Positions 10,325 to 16,764 of a stretch of 64,000 nt of DNA are shown here, one piece after another. The DNA lies in the NCBI RefSeq assembly GCF_024211275.1, contig NZ_JAMLDX010000006.1, positions 1 to 64,000 on the forward strand, in the 5' to 3' direction. The position numbers were made by a program, and so were the translations under genes. Under the pieces are notes generated by a model. The model was not told where the DNA came from. It saw only the letters and a list, made by a program, of their open reading frames with translations, and made no database searches. Position 1 is the first letter of the stretch; every line of letters starts with the position of its first letter. Source of the stretch: Sphingomonas tagetis. Lineage in GTDB: Bacteria; Pseudomonadota; Alphaproteobacteria; Sphingomonadales; Sphingomonadaceae.

Positions 10325-12919
10325 ATGACTGCCGCCCCCACTCCGATGATGGCGCAATATCTCGCGCTCAAGGCGGAGGCGACCGACTGTCTGCTCTTCT
10401 ACCGGATGGGCGATTTCTTTGAACTGTTTTTCGACGATGCCAAGACGGCGAGCGCGGTGCTCGACATCGCGCTGACCGCGCGCGGCGAGCATGACGGCGA
10501 GCGCATCCCGATGTGCGGGGTGCCGGCGCATTCGGCTGAGGGCTATCTCGCCCGGCTGATCAAGGCGGGACACCGCGTCGCCATCGCCGACCAGATCGAG
10601 ACGCCCGAGGAGGCAAAGAAGCGCGGCGGGTCGAAGGCGCTGGTCGCGCGTGCGATCATCCGCGTCGTCACCGCGGGCACGCTGACCGAGGAGGCGTTGC
10701 TCGACAGCCGCACCGCCAACTGGTGCGCCGCGATCGGCGAAGCCGGTGGCGAGACGGCGATCGCCGCGGCGGATATTTCGACCGGGCGGTTCGAAATCCT
10801 GGAGTGCAGCGCGGAGGCCGTCGGCGCGGCGCTCGCCCGTCTCAATGCGGTCGAGGTGATCGCGGCCGAGGGCAGCGAGAGCCTCGACGCGACCAGCTCT
10901 CGCCCCAAGGCCGAGTTCGACAGCAGCGGCGGCGAGGCGCGGCTCAAGAAGTTGTTCGGCGTGGCGACGCTCGACGGGTTCGGCCAGTTCAACCGGGCCG
11001 CGCTGTCAGCCGCGGGCGGGCTTGCGGCATATCTCGAACACACCGCCAAGGGTTCACTCCCGTTCCTGCGTCCGCCGCGCATCACCCGCAGCGACGCGTG
11101 CATGGCGATCGACGCGGCGACACGCGAAAGCCTTGAGCTGACGCAGAACCAGTCAGGCGCGCGCAAGGGCAGCCTGCTCGACGCGATCGACCGCACCGTC
11201 ACCGGCGCAGGCGCGCGGCTGCTCGCTGCCGATATCGCCGCGCCGCTGATGGACCGCGCGCTTGTCGAAGCCCGGCTCGACCTCGTCCAGCGCTTCCATG
11301 ACGAACAGAATCTGCGCGACGACCTCCGCGCCAGCCTCCGCGCGCTGCCCGATATCGGCCGCGCGCTGGGGCGTCTCGCCGCGGGGCGCGGTTCGCCGCG
11401 CGATCTAGGCCAGCTGCGCGACGGACTCGACGGGGCGTGGCGGCTCGGCGAGAAACTGGCGAAGCTGCCCCAACCACCGCAACTGCTCGCCGCGGTCGCG
11501 CCGGATCTGCGCGGGCATGGCGCGTTGATCGACCTGCTCCAGCGCGCGCTCGTCCCCTCGCCGCCGATCGATGCAGCGCATGGCGGCTATATCGCCGAGG
11601 GCTATGACGCCGCGCTCGACGATTTGCGCGATGCCGGTGCCGGCGGACGCCGCGCCATTGCCGCGCTGGAGGCCGACTACAAGCAGCGCACGGGCATCGC
11701 CGGGCTCAAGATCAAGCATAATGGCGTGCTCGGCTATCATATCGAGGTCGCGGCGAAACATGCCGATGAGCTGATGCGCCCGGACAGCGGCTTCACCCAT
11801 CGCCAGACGCTGGCCGGCGTGGTCCGCTTCAACGCGCCCGAGCTGCACGAGATCGCGATCAAGGTGACACAAGCGGGCGCGCATGCGCTGACCGCCGAGG
11901 CCGCGCATCTCGAGGACTTGACTGCCGCCGCGCTTGATCGGCGCGAAGCGATTGCCGCGACCGCCGACGCGCTGGCAAGGCTCGATGTCGCCTCGGCGCT
12001 GGCCGAGCGCGCGGCGGAGGGCGGATGGACACGGCCCGTGCTGGTCGATCACGCCTGTTTCGAAGTCGAGGGCGGACGCCACCCCGTGGTCGAATCGGCG
12101 CTGGCACGCAGTGGCGAGCGTTTCGTCGCCAATGACTGTGCGCTGTCCGAATCCAATCGGCTGTGGCTGGTCACCGGCCCGAACATGGGCGGCAAGTCGA
12201 CCTTCCTGCGCCAGAATGCCCTGATCGCCGTACTCGCACAGGCAGGTGCCTATGTCCCGGCGGCGCGGGCGAAGCTCGGGCTGGTCGACCGGCTGTTCAG
12301 CCGCGTCGGCGCTTCGGACAATCTCGCGCGCGGACGTTCGACCTTCATGGTCGAGATGGTCGAGACCGCCGCGATCCTGGCGCAGGCGACGCCACGCAGC
12401 TTCGTGATCCTCGACGAGGTGGGGCGCGGCACCTCGACCTATGACGGGCTCGCCATCGCCTGGGCGGTGGTCGAGGCGATCCATGAGGACAATCGCTGCC
12501 GCTGCCTGTTCGCGACGCATTATCACGAACTGACGCGACTGGCCGAGCGGTGCGAGGCGCTGTCGCTGCACCATGTGCGGGCGCGCGAGTGGAAGGGCGA
12601 TCTGGTGCTGCTGCACGAGGTCGCGGAAGGACCTGCCGACCGCAGCTATGGCCTCGCCGTGGCGCGGCTCGCCGGGTTGCCGCCGGTGACTCTCGCGCGC
12701 GCCAAGGCGGTGCTGGCGAAGCTTGAGGCGGGACGCGAGAAGACCGGGGGGATCGCCGCGGGGCTCGACGACCTGCCGCTGTTCGCCGCGGCGATGGTGC
12801 AGGAAGAGGAAGCGGTCGATGCATTGCGCGCCGAGCTTGGCGCACTAGATATCGACGCGCTGAGCCCGCGTGATGCACTGGATACGCTCTACCGGCTCAA
12901 GACTTTGATGGACCTTTGA
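10325..12919 (+). CDS. mutS: DNA mismatch repair protein MutS
   Basis: A protein of about 864 residues. The mismatch-binding domain begins with MMAQYLALKAEATDCLLFYR and the MGDFFELFFDDA segment, containing the F-x-E motif that contacts mismatched DNA. The C-terminal ATPase has Walker A GPNMGGKST at about residues 618-626, FMVEMVETAAIL, DEVGRGTSTYDGLAIAWA and ATHYHELT. It recognises replication mismatches and recruits MutL. ATG 10325 is chosen over an upstream ATG at 10226 because the extra N-terminus is low-complexity; ATG 10346 is also possible. Its TGA stop overlaps the ATG of a small membrane protein, implying coupling. Confidence 0.95.
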   Translation: MTAAPTPMMAQYLALKAEATDCLLFYRMGDFFELFFDDAKTASAVLDIALTARGEHDGERIPMCGVPAHSAEGYLARLIKAGHRVAIADQIETPEEAKKRGGSKALVARAIIRVVTAGTLTEEALLDSRTANWCAAIGEAGGETAIAAADISTGRFEILECSAEAVGAALARLNAVEVIAAEGSESLDATSSRPKAEFDSSGGEARLKKLFGVATLDGFGQFNRAALSAAGGLAAYLEHTAKGSLPFLRPPRITRSDACMAIDAATRESLELTQNQSGARKGSLLDAIDRTVTGAGARLLAADIAAPLMDRALVEARLDLVQRFHDEQNLRDDLRASLRALPDIGRALGRLAAGRGSPRDLGQLRDGLDGAWRLGEKLAKLPQPPQLLAAVAPDLRGHGALIDLLQRALVPSPPIDAAHGGYIAEGYDAALDDLRDAGAGGRRAIAALEADYKQRTGIAGLKIKHNGVLGYHIEVAAKHADELMRPDSGFTHRQTLAGVVRFNAPELHEIAIKVTQAGAHALTAEAAHLEDLTAAALDRREAIAATADALARLDVASALAERAAEGGWTRPVLVDHACFEVEGGRHPVVESALARSGERFVANDCALSESNRLWLVTGPNMGGKSTFLRQNALIAVLAQAGAYVPAARAKLGLVDRLFSRVGASDNLARGRSTFMVEMVETAAILAQATPRSFVILDEVGRGTSTYDGLAIAWAVVEAIHEDNRCRCLFATHYHELTRLAERCEALSLHHVRAREWKGDLVLLHEVAEGPADRSYGLAVARLAGLPPVTLARAKAVLAKLEAGREKTGGIAAGLDDLPLFAAAMVQEEEAVDALRAELGALDIDALSPRDALDTLYRLKTLMDL

Positions 12920-13077
12920 TGCGCGAATCCGGCCTTTTCGGGATCATCCAGATCGTCTTCGTGACCGTGCGCGACGGTTATTCGACGGCGCGCGCGTGGC
13001 AGGTGATGGCGGCGTTCGCGCTGCTCGCCGCGATCCCGATCGCGCTGGTCGTCGGCATCGCGCTGCTGCTCAGCTAG
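12919..13077 (+). CDS. Small membrane protein coupled to mutS
   Basis: A 52-residue product, MRESGLFGIIQIVFVTVRDG, then an amphipathic stretch and a clear transmembrane segment (AFALLAAIPIALVVGIALLL) near the C-terminus. Its ATG overlaps the mutS TGA (TGATG), indicating translational coupling. The last 8 bases overlap the convergent FMN reductase gene. Too short for family recognition; seen as a real gene because of the start overlap, the coherent membrane segment and absence of better frames. Function unknown. Confidence 0.6.
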   Translation: MRESGLFGIIQIVFVTVRDGYSTARAWQVMAAFALLAAIPIALVVGIALLLS

Positions 13078-13645
13078 CGCGAGCCGCCTTCGCCGCCGCG
13101 ATCCACCACAGTAATTCGTCGGCGAAGCGCGGGAAGCCGCGCACCAGCGCCTGCCCGCCCTCGCCCTGTGGCTCATCCTTCTCGTCGAGCGTCTGGCCGA
13201 TCTGCGCGACGGTGATCGTCGCGGGCACCACCGCCATACCCATCCCGGTCAGCGTCGGGTGCCACATCGAGTTGCTGCGCGCGCCGGCGAGCCGGCCCGC
13301 CGAGTAACTGACGATGGCAGCCGGGCGGCGTGCCCATTCGGCGAGGAAATGGTCGGTCAGGTTCTTTAGGCCGGGCTGCATGCCCCAATTATATTCGCCG
13401 GCGACGAACAGGAATCCGTCGGCGCTGCGCAGCTTTTCGGCCAGCGTTTCCATCGCGGCCGGCGCTTCGCCCGGCGGATAGTCCATGTAGCGCCTGTCGA
13501 GCATCGGCAGCCCGACATCCCTGGCGTCGATCAGCTCGGCGTCCAGACCGCGCGCCGCCAGTTGCGCGACGATCCACCGGGCCAGCCGGATGCCGACGCG
13601 CGCTTCACGGTAGGAGCCGTAGAAAACGAGAATGCGGTCGGCCAT
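13070..13645 (-). CDS. NAD(P)H-dependent FMN reductase / flavodoxin-fold oxidoreductase
   Basis: A 191-residue flavodoxin-like protein. MADRILVFYGSYREARVGIRLA supplies the beta1-loop that binds FMN phosphate, and FLFVAGEYNWGMQPGLKNLTDHF matches the P.YN.S.P..LKN..D signature of NADPH-dependent FMN/quinone reductases, with YN-W-G-M variation. It probably reduces FMN, quinones or similar acceptors in the cytosol. GGGAG lies 7 bases before ATG 13645. The gene stands directly behind an intrinsic-terminator hairpin and a long structured leader on its own strand, which suggests regulation by transcription attenuation (inference). Confidence 0.82.
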   Translation of the reverse strand: MADRILVFYGSYREARVGIRLARWIVAQLAARGLDAELIDARDVGLPMLDRRYMDYPPGEAPAAMETLAEKLRSADGFLFVAGEYNWGMQPGLKNLTDHFLAEWARRPAAIVSYSAGRLAGARSNSMWHPTLTGMGMAVVPATITVAQIGQTLDEKDEPQGEGGQALVRGFPRFADELLWWIAAAKAARAS

Positions 13646-13656
13646 GCGCGTGCTCC

Positions 13657-13703
13657 CAAAATGAAAGAGGCCACCGGGGCCATCCCTGGCACCCGGTGAC
13701 CTC
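13657..13703 (-). terminator. Intrinsic terminator between leader and FMN reductase
   Basis: On the minus strand GAGGTCACCGGG pairs with CCCGGTGGCCTC (one mismatch or wobble) around a loop of about 13 bases, followed by CTTTCATTTT. The terminator's U-tract abuts the GGGAG ribosome-binding site of the gene starting at 13645. Confidence 0.72.
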
Positions 13704-13838
13704 CGACATGGTCAGCGGCCGGAAGCTCCAGCCCGGGAGACCATGCGGGCCGCTTGTCCGCTGCTGGCGCCGTTGATTGGGGGAGGATACCCCCCGTGCG
13801 CCGTGCCGGTGGAGGGCTTCCACCGGTTGCATCGGATC

Positions 13839-13895
13839 TTAGCGGCGCGTCTCCCGAACGAACTGAACCGACCCCACTGCTGAACCATGAGACAT
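13839..13895 (-). CDS. Putative leader peptide, 18 residues
   Basis: The ORF encodes MSHGSAVGSVQFVRETRR and stops at TAA 13839-13841. Its start is preceded by an unusually long match to the 16S anti-Shine-Dalgarno (AAAGGAGGTGATCC, 13897-13910), leaving one base before ATG. The peptide has no run of a single amino acid, so classic amino-acid attenuation is not obvious; translation itself may remodel the downstream hairpins. Too short to support by homology. Confidence 0.45.
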   Translation of the reverse strand: MSHGSAVGSVQFVRETRR

Positions 13896-14032
13896 CGGAT
13901 CACCTCCTTTCGCTTGTTAAAACGCTGTACCCGGCCTGGGCACGGATGAACTTTGAATCATCCTGACTCATAGAACAAGTCTTGTAATGCATCGCGAAAT
14001 CGGCGAATCTCAAAGTTCTGGCGCATGACAGC

Positions 14033-14524
14033 TCAGCGCCGGCAATCCTCAGCGACACGAAGCACCTCTGCCCAGGCAGGAATCACCAGCGGCGGCTGTG
14101 ATGCGCTCTCGACGATGAATCGCCCGCGGCTATAGCCCATCGCATCGATTAGCGGGTCGCTGGCGGGCAACGCCGCGCCCGACAGGCTGCGCGCGGTGCT
14201 GGTGGTGCGGATCGTCATCGGGCCTGAAGCCGTACCCCGGGCGAGGATCAGCCTGCTACCGCCGGCCTCGCACTGGATCGAGAAGACCGCCGCACCGCCC
14301 GATCCATAGACCGCCCCCGTCCCCTGCCCGTCGCGCCGATAGCTCCAATTGCCCGGCGTCACCGGCCAGTCGCGCCAGTCGCTGCTGGCGGCGGGGGGCG
14401 GCGGCGCGGGTGCCGGGGCAGGTGCGGGAACCGGTACCGGGCGCGCCGGCGCAGGCGGCGGGGCCGACGGCGCCACGCAACCGGCGAGGATGGCAAGCGA
14501 AGCACAGGCGAGAAGGTTACGCAT
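14033..14524 (-). CDS. Putative outer-membrane lipoprotein
   Basis: A 163-residue product with a lipoprotein signal: MRNLLACASLAILAGCVAPS, cysteine of the LAGC lipobox at residue 16. A proline/alanine-rich linker (APARPVPVPAPAPAPAPPPP) spans roughly residues 23-45, followed by a compact domain with WRDWPVTPGNWSYRRDGQG and CEAGGSRLILARG, ending in VAEDCRR. Two later cysteines could pair. No family name is recognised beyond a lipid-anchored sphingomonad hypothetical. It follows uvrB on the same strand with a 50-base gap. Confidence 0.72.
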   Translation of the reverse strand: MRNLLACASLAILAGCVAPSAPPPAPARPVPVPAPAPAPAPPPPAASSDWRDWPVTPGNWSYRRDGQGTGAVYGSGGAAVFSIQCEAGGSRLILARGTASGPMTIRTTSTARSLSGAALPASDPLIDAMGYSRGRFIVESASQPPLVIPAWAEVLRVAEDCRR

Positions 14525-14574
14525 GGACAACCTTATGGGGGAGCGAGTCCGGCGGCTCAACCGTTCGCCGCCAC

Positions 14575-16764
14575 TCAACGCTTTGCCCCACCCCATTTGC
14601 GCTGCACCTTGCCGTAACGCGTCTTGCGCGTGCCTGGCTTGCCCTCGTTGCTGCGGCCCATCACCGGCGCGCGGCGCAGTTCGTGCGGCAGGCCAAGCTC
14701 TTCCGCCTCGAGGCTGCGGATCTCGTCGCGCAGGCGGCCGGCTTCCTCGAATTCGAGGTTGGCGGCGGCATCGCGCATCTTCTTTTCGAGTTCCTCGATA
14801 TAGGCGCGCAGATTGTGGCCGACCATGTGCGCCGGGCCGTCCTCGATCTCGACCGTAACCTGATCCTTGCTCGCCACATGCGCGATGATGTCGCCGATGT
14901 TGCGCTTGATCGTGGTCGGGGTGATGCCGTGTTCGAGGTTGTAGGCCTCCTGCTTTTCGCGGCGTCGGCCGGTCTCGTTGAGTGCGCGCTCCATGCTGCC
15001 GGTGACGCGGTCGGCATAGAGGATCACGCGGCCCTCGACGTTGCGCGCGGCGCGTCCGATCGTCTGGATCAGCGAGGTCTCGGAACGCAGGAATCCCTCC
15101 TTGTCGGCGTCGAGGATCGCGACGAGTCCGCATTCGGGGATGTCGAGCCCTTCGCGCAGCAGGTTGATGCCGATGAGCACGTCATAGACGCCCAGGCGCA
15201 GGTCGCGGATCAGCTCGATCCGCTCGAGCGTCTCGACGTCGCTGTGCATGTAGCGGACCTTGATCCCGGCCTCGTGCATATATTCGGTCAAGTCTTCGGC
15301 CATGCGCTTGGTCAGCGTGGTGACGAGCGTGCGATAGCCCATCTCGGCGGTCTTGCGGCATTCGACGATCAGATCCTGCACCTGCTCCTCGACCGGCTTG
15401 ATCTCGACCGGCGGGTCGATCAGGCCGGTGGGGCGGATGACCTGTTCGCTGAACACGCCGCCGGTCTGCTCCATTTCCCAGCCGCCCGGCGTCGCCGAGA
15501 CGCTAACCGTCTGCGGCCGCATCGCGTCCCATTCGTTGAAGCGCAGCGGGCGGTTGTCGATGCAGCTCGGCAGGCGGAAGCCGTACTCGGCGAGCGTGAT
15601 CTTGCGGCGGTGATCGCCGCGCGCCATCGCACCGATCTGCGGCACGGTCTGGTGACTCTCGTCGACGAACAGCAAGGCGTTTTCGGGCAGATATTCGAAC
15701 AGGGTCGGCGGCGGCTCGCCGGGCAGGCGGCCGGTGAGGAAGCGGCTGTAATTCTCGATCCCCGCGCAGCTGCCGGTGGCGGCGATCATCTCGAGATCGA
15801 AATTGGTGCGCTGTTCGAGCCGCTGCGCCTCGAGCAATTTGCCTTCGATGTGCAGTTCCTTGAGCCGCTCGGCGAGCTCGTGCTTGATCGCCTCCATCGC
15901 CTGTTTGAGTGTCGGGCCAGGCGTGACGTGGTGCGAGTTGGCATAGACGCGGATCGTGTCGAGACTGGCGACCTTGGCGCCGGTCAGCGGATCGAACTCG
16001 GTGATCTCCTCGATATCGTCGCCGAAGAAGCTGATCCGCCAGGCGGTGTCGTCATAGTGCGACGGGAAGATTTCGAGACTGTCGCCGCGCACGCGGAAAT
16101 TGCCGCGGTTGAACGCCGCGTCGTTGCGCTTGTACTGGAGCGCGACAAGCTTGCGGATGATCTCGCGCTGGTCGGCGACCTGGCCCTTCTTCAAGTCGAA
16201 GATCATCGCCGAATAGGTCTCGACCGAACCGATGCCGTAGATGCACGAGACCGAGGCGACGATGATCACGTCGTCGCGTTCGAGCAGCGAGCGGGTGGCC
16301 GAATGGCGCATCCGGTCGATCGCCTCGTTCACCGAGCTTTCCTTCTCGATGTACGTGTCCGACCGCGGCACATAGGCCTCGGGCTGGTAATAGTCGTAAT
16401 AGCTGACGAAATATTCGACGGCGTTCTCGGGGAAGAACGACTTGAACTCGCCATAGAGCTGCGCGGCAAGGATCTTGTTGGGGGCGAGGATCAACGCCGG
16501 ACGCTGAAGCGCCTCGATCACCTTGGCCATGGTGAAGGTCTTGCCCGAGCCGGTGACGCCGAGCAGCACCTGATCGCGCTCGCCGGCCAACGCCGCCTCG
16601 GTCAGCTCGGCGATCGCGGTCGGCTGGTCGCCGGACGGGGTATATTCGCTGACCAGCTTGAACGCGCGGCCGCCCTCGGATTTCGGGGGGCGCTGCGGAC
16701 GGTGCGGGACGAAGCTCTGGCCGGTTTCGGGCTCGTCGAGATTGGTGCGGATCTGAATGACCAT
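14575..16764 (-). CDS. uvrB: Excinuclease ABC subunit B (UvrB)
   Basis: A 729-residue nucleotide excision repair helicase-like protein; UvrA loads it at lesions and UvrC then cuts. Walker A GVTGSGKT lies at about residues 69-76; the DNA-clamping beta-hairpin motif [15 protein letters not shown] is present; helicase motifs include [28 protein letters not shown] and QTIGRAARN. The C-terminal UVR motif ([20 protein letters not shown]) recruits UvrC and is followed by a basic tail ([16 protein letters not shown]). ATG 16764 gives MVIQIRTNL; the longer frame upstream crosses repeats in the promoter. I saw no alphaproteobacterial LexA box (GTTC-N7-GTTC) ahead of it. Confidence 0.96.

Follow-up and report, generated by a model that had tools for sequence, protein, structure and literature searches.

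The RNA family CC2171 (Rfam RF01867) reportedly has its source in Landt 2008. SgrS/SgrT is a dual-function sRNA with a short ORF at its 5' end, and trpL is a leader-peptide attenuator. The anti-Shine-Dalgarno (anti-SD) sRNAs of Rhizobiales, which we take to be those named cuckoo, are a further group with which an RNA of this kind can be compared. Two of them, SmelA075 and SmelA099, carry anti-SD CCUCC loops according to the available part of the source (PMC3927594). SisA-D, considered as relatives of the RNA described here, were set aside as a different family on the portion of the source that was accessible.

CC2171 is named among the families with improved structure in the available part of Rfam 15, and a table of predicted sRNAs in the accessible part of PMC5596092 places the Mesorhizobium huakuii RNA MH_s33 in RF01867. 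In Caulobacter, ribosome profiling is reported to have found intergenic ncRNA regions untranslated, CC2171 not being named in the available text (PMC4117421). CC2171 is also not described in the accessible portions of PMC4117421, PMC12559287, PMC5082802, PMC10117765, PMC3927594 and PMC2873474, and the literature searched held no functional study of it.

Anatomy of the RNA unit

The window, a 64,000 nt stretch of Sphingomonas tagetis contig NZ_JAMLDX010000006.1, was searched with Rfam as a whole, and only tRNA was found at the gathering cut-offs. Between 13560 and 14080, RF01867 was the sole family with an E-value below 1, with a match on the strand of the unit (28.5 bits, E 3.3e-4) that did not reach the cut-off of 75 bits. 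A known riboswitch was considered for the same region and rejected, the sul1 match (15.1 bits, E 3.2) being taken as chance. As no family was above its cut-off at the unit, the statement in the first-pass annotation that no known riboswitch consensus is visible stands. The unit is located on the minus strand from 13911 to 13658 (coordinates re-read by script), between a lipoprotein-like ORF (14530-14033) and an FMN reductase gene (13645-13070), both also on the minus strand. It includes, in order, an SD block, an ORF, three hairpins and a terminator with its tail, and the features are as follows:

14033-14530, minus strand: upstream lipoprotein-like ORF without a Pfam match, often found next to the unit in Sphingomonadaceae
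13897-13911, minus strand: extended Shine-Dalgarno block GAAAGGAGGTGATCC, a 15-base complement of the 16S rRNA 3' end
13895-13898, minus strand: CCGA, start-site strand of the candidate start-masking pairing, with its partner TCGG at 13871-13868
13881-13902, minus strand: alternative local start hairpin, predicted in the window MFE and read by index
13839-13895, minus strand: 18-codon ORF MSHGSAVGSVQFVRETRR plus TAA, read by script
13879-13889, minus strand: P1 5' arm CATGGTTCAGC (codons 3-6), complementary to 13716-13707 and not formed in the window MFE
13868-13871, minus strand: TCGG, candidate start-masking element in the ORF (codon 9 and the next base), from co-change of tetramer and partner between types
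13849-13855, minus strand: P2 5' arm GGGAGAC (codons 14-16), from RNAalifold of 30 same-genus elements
13806-13826, minus strand: variable hairpin A, CCGGTGGA-AGCCC-TCCACCGG, from the sequence and alignment A1, with many relatives lacking it
13779-13796, minus strand: hairpin B, CGGGGGG-TATC-CTCCCCC, covarying within the genus (alignment A1, columns 132-161)
13735-13741, minus strand: P2 3' arm GTCTCCC, from the same RNAalifold of 30 same-genus elements
13717-13733, minus strand: apical hairpin GGCTGGAGCTTCCGGCC, nearly invariant in 30 same-genus copies
13707-13716, minus strand: P1 3' arm GCTGACCATG, directly before the terminator, from its complementarity to the P1 5' arm
13658-13704, minus strand: intrinsic terminator, with a covarying stem (13704-13667) and the tail TTTCATTTT (13666-13658)
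13070-13645, minus strand: FMN reductase (PF03358, Pfam E 1.8e-30), a neighbour outside the conserved unit

All of the leader parts that the first-pass annotation had placed on one strand in transcription order were recovered on the minus strand at script-read coordinates. This includes the 18-codon leader ORF (13895-13839 plus TAA), the three hairpins (13826-13806, 13796-13779 and 13733-13717) and a terminator U-tract touching the reductase ribosome-binding site, the tail (13666-13658) being followed by GGGAG and then by the reductase ATG at 13645. The match to the anti-SD that it had given as 14 bases is real and is 15 bases long. The 296-nt stretch has a predicted folding energy of -152.9 kcal/mol, beating all 200 dinucleotide shuffles (mean -126.0 kcal/mol, z -4.8), and variation in P2 among the 30 same-genus elements in the RNAalifold analysis is mostly by G-U exchange. 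A simple scan of 12000-15500 flagged neither the terminator nor any sigma-70-like promoter.

Complementarity to the 16S rRNA tail

The GAAAGGAGGTGATCC block complements 15 bases of the 16S rRNA 3' end (...GGCTGGATCACCTCCTTTCTAAGGA), as established for two same-genus genomes, since the pattern for the 16S end was recovered in 2 of 21 relatives, the window's own genome not being among them. With up to one mismatch, the 15-mer occurs at two sites in the 4.68-Mb genome, one in the unit and one elsewhere (L208), where the surrounding DNA had no Rfam match. The predicted duplex of the block with the 16S tail is -28.0 kcal/mol compared with -8.7 for GGAGG alone. The exact 15-mer was also found in 19 of the best 25 class-wide RF01867 matches, which were drawn by the Rfam model and not by the authors' own SD pattern. 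On these calculated energies, the SD block could grip the 30S subunit very tightly.

Distribution of the unit

A set of 194 elements was obtained from loci L001-L207 by de-duplication on the first 140 nt and by requiring a fit to an SD-plus-RTG pattern. Loci L056-L085 were drawn with GAAAGGAGGTGATCCNRTGTCTCAT at up to two mismatches and L086-L207 with exact GAAAGGAGGTGATCCNRTGTCTCAT (at least 120 stretches, 80 of them named), so the letters of GAAAGGAGGTGATCCNRTGTCTCAT are conserved by construction in L056-L207. Elements with CATGG from the third codon (107 of 194) were designated S-type and the remaining 87 C-type.

When the 296 bases were used in blastn searches, matches were found in 35 of 37 same-genus genomes, the window's own included, and in none of 24 genomes from other families of the order. 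Of 118 genomes of the order, 30 contained GAAAGGAGGTGATCCNRTGTCTCAT with up to two mismatches, and every one of these belongs to the window's family. The 23-base pattern GGAGGTGATCCGATGTCTCATGG with up to three mismatches was present in 120 of 149 family genomes, 108 of these 120 having it without mismatch (hand count), and the same pattern read backwards as a control gave no match among the 149. The ORF, the strong SD, the hairpins and the terminator, which the earlier annotation had grouped as one unit, are conserved together across relatives, and the start of the ORF takes part in the fold.

An RF01867 search of the class gave matches at E<=0.01 in 45 of 190 genomes, seven of them above the cut-off. 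Among 14 controls, Caulobacter vibrioides matched above the cut-off and Deinobacterium chartae, which lies outside the class, below it; the weak class-wide matches are therefore uncertain. A model, R1, built from 55 C-type elements found 59 of 289 genomes at E<=0.001, 58 of the 59 with a single match, and the window copy scored 32.9 bits (E 2.3e-4) under this model. Two matches per genome were seen in the same-genus genome G010 (RF01867, R1 and pattern searches), which carries one C-type and one S-type copy, in G204, G098, G126, G219 and G234 with RF01867, and in G447, G467 and G561 with the GGAGGTGATCCGATGTCTCATGG pattern. Among the matches listed were Sphingomonas, Novosphingobium, Erythrobacter, Bosea, Methylobacterium, Microvirga, Kaistia, Brevundimonas, Azospirillum, Roseococcus and Roseomonas, with copies in records of Hyphomicrobiales, Caulobacterales and Rhodospirillales.

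The SD/start core was also seen in two viral contigs, L206 (3865-5320) and L207 (7906-9856), at up to ~0.2 kb from an integrase gene (phrog_1 and phrog_95 integrases). L207 matches the Brevundimonas copy L122 from the first base of GAAAGGAGG up to the contig end, with 97% identity across 99 nt, and the identity of L206 to copy L175 stops 30 nt past that base. As integrase-adjacent identity starts or ends around GAAAGGAGG, the RNA gene looks like a candidate phage attachment site. L206 is near-identical to L161 (Methylobacterium jeotgali), both having an ORF of 33 codons and weak P1 pairing (-8.1 kcal/mol in L206, with a script-picked terminator), as would be expected if an insertion had replaced the 3' part.

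The short ORF and its coding signal

The ORF is 18 codons long in 95 of the 107 S-type elements and 19-26 codons long in 82 of the 87 C-type elements, its openness being by construction as each frame was followed from its start codon until a stop was reached. Start codons are ATG in 121 elements and GTG in 73. Across 71 distinct ORFs of 18 codons, no variation is seen in codons 1-4 and 9 (codon 9 being TCG in 71 of 71) and codon 5 is nearly invariant. Close S-type pairs have 19 synonymous and 107 nonsynonymous differences in codons 6-18, where 28% synonymous would be expected, and 11 close C-type pairs have 23 synonymous and 41 nonsynonymous differences and one stop, with 29% synonymous expected. 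Judged by these substitution counts, codons 6-18 appear to be under no purifying selection on the peptide. As the frame is kept and the peptide is not clearly kept, selection may act on translation and not on its product.

Longer ORFs of 57-59 codons were seen in L126, L153 and L165 (Azospirillum), and by eye their peptides resemble a signal sequence with a Cys/Ser-rich tail after it.

Two comparatively supported pairings at the start site

P1 joins codons 3-6 of the ORF to the bases directly before the terminator, and its commonest letters are CATTGTC/GACAATG in C-type and CATGGTTCAGC/GCTGACCATG in S-type elements. The P1-arm test covered 193 of the 194 elements. The duplex energy of the arms averages -16.6 compared with -10.2 for shuffles, and in 148 of the 193 elements their pairing ranks in the top 5 of 100 shuffles, though the shuffle and permutation statistics, here and below, ignore relatedness. 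Alignment A2 includes 55 of the 87 C-type elements, and as the 32 omitted are near-duplicates, length outliers or diverged copies (the last including L044, L046, L047, L049-L053 and L055), its pairing figures lean towards the structure. In A2, 94.0% of P1 cells are paired, and 5 of 7 pairs have changed on both sides.

In the second pairing, GATCCNR, spanning the end of the SD and the beginning of the start codon, is joined to an element in the ORF, typically CTGGATC, which in C-type elements is most often ~34-41 nt after the start. In A2 it is 88.3% paired with changes on both sides at 4 of 7 pairs, and base N forms A-U in 36 elements, G-C in 6, U-A in 3, C-G in 1 and other combinations in 9. 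The whole structure in A2 is 92.7% paired compared with 83.2% for shuffles (0 of 500), all five whole-structure measures are above each of the 500 shuffles, and pairing falls to 29.6-52.6% when the partner strand is slid. The unit is conserved and, in C-type copies, its helices covary.

The tetramer test used the 154 distinct elements, of 194, that passed the filter. A complement of CCNR was found within codons 7-18 in 131 of the 154, compared with 69.8 after permutation (maximum 92). For C-type elements alone the count was 65 of 84 compared with 42.8 (maximum 56), and for S-type elements alone 66 of 70 compared with 66.5, with no covariation inside S-type. The support for CCGA/TCGG is thus a between-type comparison, since the pairing is near-invariant in S-type. 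The tetramer's own complement is present for CCAG (0.93 of 54), CCGA (0.96 of 71), CCGG (0.86 of 7) and CCCG (2 of 2). The rule fails for CCTG, with its own complement in 0.43 of 7 and that of CCAG in 0.57, for CCAA, with its own complement in 0.11 of 9 and that of CCGA in 0.67, and for CCTA (0 of 2). Among the 82 C-type elements whose duplex reaches -8.5 kcal/mol or better, base N is one of the best choices for the duplex in 42, compared with 26.2 after permutation, and 0 of 20000 permutations were as high. A longer SD/ORF duplex in S-type elements was rejected as no better than shuffles, being ranked 3 or better of 60 in 5 of 104.

As P1 and the start pairing cross, they would form a pseudoknot or be mutually exclusive. 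P1 is absent from the window MFE and from the consensus fold of 30 same-genus copies, and is a candidate helix in the window that rests on comparison with the C-type copies. In the window MFE, UGA-CC-AUG (13902-13893) pairs with CAU-GG-UCA (13889-13881), using the P1 5' arm, such that the AUG (13895-13893) lies opposite the CAU of codon 3 (13889-13887). In the consensus fold of the same-genus copies, the SD is paired with codons 9-13, and this fold supports P2, hairpin B, the apical hairpin and the terminator. As the MFE, the consensus fold and the comparative pairing differ, the start site could pair with any of three or more partners. In nested folding, the start codon of C-type elements is unpaired at 0.79 in the full RNA compared with 0.29 when truncated, and that of S-type elements at 0.58 compared with 0.45. 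Completing P1 thus raises the predicted openness of the start codon, and P1 could activate rather than mask.

Relation to the FMN reductase and other neighbours

Control of the FMN reductase, as proposed in the first-pass annotation, was not borne out by tblastn, which found a reductase downstream of 5 of the 194 distinct elements (L001, L123, L002, L021 and L012, at a distance of 21 to 637 nt). At least 700 nt of downstream DNA was available for 179 of the 194. The nearest downstream ORFs (n=179) form 123 groups at blastp E 1e-5, of which the largest has 15 members; 74 of the ORFs share the strand of the element and 105 are on the opposite strand, and the nearest upstream ORFs (n=184) form 102 groups, the largest of 51; these ORFs were called by a longest-ORF rule, which may choose the wrong strand in GC-rich DNA. 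The upstream lipoprotein was matched by tblastn at 92 of the 194 elements, and in the 40 matches listed all elements were S-type, with the lipoprotein gene on the same strand and mostly 90-220 nt upstream. A terminator was found by script in 193 of 194 elements. No element competing with the terminator stem was seen in the predicted folds (window MFE and genus consensus); P1, P2 and the start pairing are clear of 13704-13667, the terminator is kept, and the long-range helix stops 2 bases before its stem.

Of 86 C-type upstream regions, 81 were scorable, and in 63 of these the best sigma-70-like -10 box precedes the SD by 16-23 nt, compared with 8 of 82 for shuffled controls. In S-type elements, the best sites cluster weakly at 36-43 nt (39 of 99, compared with 18 of 103 shuffled) and the scores are near those of shuffled sequence (6.52 compared with 6.25). 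A sigma-70 promoter was therefore not established for S-type, none having been found in the window scan, and processing from an upstream transcript is possible for these copies. As the neighbours vary and the terminator is constant, the unit is taken to consist of a promoter (seen in C-type), SD, ORF, fold and terminator. It has no constant client gene and is independent of the downstream gene.

Downstream of the element in L038 and L039 (two related genomes), the stretch resembles what we take to be a 4.5S SRP RNA gene. In L073-L075, a Lys/Ser/Gly-rich ORF seems, by eye, to open shortly past the terminator.

Proposed role and alternative explanations

The unit is read here as a stand-alone, translation-gated putative regulatory RNA gene of the CC2171 kind with its own terminator, a reading judged to have an even chance of being correct. 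If transcribed as a unit in the window, the RNA would be ~250 nt long with an mRNA-like 5' end, the 15-base 16S complement preceding the short ORF. Two comparative pairings would cover the initiation site, one of the start bases with the element in codons 9-15 and one of codons 3-6 with the pre-terminator segment. P1 lies at positions +7 to +17, and the end of the SD and the start are taken up by the second pairing. To dock on the SD and move into the ORF, a 30S subunit would have to melt both, such that ribosome occupancy and the closed fold would be mutually exclusive. If the ORF is translated, selection would probably maintain entry of the ribosome and an open frame of constant length and not the peptide. 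Ribosome loading may then switch the RNA by exposing the 3' segment, made up of the P1 3' arm and the conserved pre-terminator block, and the exposed segment might act on target RNAs in trans. The seed of many sRNAs lies in the 3' arm before the terminator, and the trans-acting proposal draws on this. The absence of P1 from the window MFE and the genus consensus fold tempers this reading.

Several other explanations bear on the same features. That the RNA is a tiny mRNA with a peptide of 18-25 residues as its product would fit the ATG/GTG starts, the narrow range of ORF lengths, the recurrence of MSHGSA or VSHC(H) at the N-terminus and that of TW-I-AS in many C-type peptides. However, the codons for TW-I-AS are also those of the start-masking element, the invariant codons 1-4 and 9 largely fall within RNA pairings, codons 6-18 have a nonsynonymous excess in S-type (19:107), and the C-type pairs have no clear constraint (23:41 plus one stop), making a small-protein gene rather unlikely. 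Hok-like or AapA1-like mRNAs have a long-range helix and a masked SD, and a type I toxin mRNA with translation masked by 5'-3' pairing would share this layout; yet the peptide is neither conserved nor consistently hydrophobic (lists judged by eye) and the element is present in 120 of 149 family genomes, usually once, so that a toxin is scarcely credible.

The strong 16S complement could instead make the RNA a sink or sensor for free 30S subunits, the 15 bases titrating or reporting idle small subunits. The duplex energy and the recurrence of the exact 15-mer in the best RF01867 matches favour this, and a structured start site could keep the 30S in standby. Against it, there is usually one match per genome (58 of 59), with two in a few genomes at looser limits, and a sink would thus need very high expression; this explanation is unlikely. 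The role first proposed, a transcription attenuator of the downstream FMN reductase, draws on the terminator tail adjoining the reductase ribosome-binding site and on the reductase being no more than 52 nt from the terminator in L001, L012 and L021. As the gene follows so few elements, the others being mostly next to unlinked genes and 105 of 179 in opposite orientation, and as no antiterminator is seen in the predicted folds, it is very unlikely as an account of the unit. Attenuation of the reductase as a conserved role was rejected as unlikely because the downstream gene is not conserved, and a local secondary use of the unit for the reductase in this species is possible.

For the translation-gated regulatory RNA, a more specific form can be tentatively suggested, though it is doubtful. 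The RNA might sense small-subunit availability, the 16S complement capturing a 30S subunit, the pseudoknot keeping it on standby and its entry into a disposable ORF toggling the 3' segment in trans. If true, this would represent a general translation-status switch acting in trans in alphaproteobacteria. CC2171 is in Rfam as a Caulobacter sRNA and can now be linked to an RNA of 120 of 149 genomes of the window's family. With its short ORF, perfect 16S complement and covarying start pairings, an orphan entry becomes a testable candidate translation-gated RNA in much of the class.

Comparison with known systems

The unit shares with SgrS/SgrT a short ORF at the 5' end and a conserved segment just before an intrinsic terminator. 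It differs in that its peptide lacks purifying selection in codons 6-18, its SD is fully complementary to the 16S tail and, in C-type, its start site is under covarying pairings. Leader-peptide attenuators such as trpL, and rnTrpL in the available part of PMC10117765, also have a leader ORF, alternative pairings and a terminator, whereas the unit has no conserved downstream gene and no antiterminator seen in predicted folds. Like SmelA075 and SmelA099, it is a structured alphaproteobacterial sRNA candidate with SD/anti-SD pairing, but it bears the SD itself and a start codon where those have anti-SD loops.

The closest likeness is to CC2171, as the 5' block AACAA-CGAAAGGAGGUGAUCC-UGUCUCAU is common to both, with GAAAGGAGGUGAUCC and UGUCUCAU each present in the window copy, and a candidate long-range helix and a terminator are in the same place. 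Where CC2171 pairs UCAU-UGUC with the pre-terminator bases, the window has complementary arms with other letters, whose pairing covaries in C-type copies and is absent from the window MFE and the genus consensus fold. The window copy differs in P1, with CATGGTTCAGC/GCTGACCATG in place of CATTGTC/GACAATG, and in having extra hairpins and P2 in the middle. The unit is best read as a diverged Sphingomonadaceae branch of the CC2171 kind (RF01867), formally below the cut-off.
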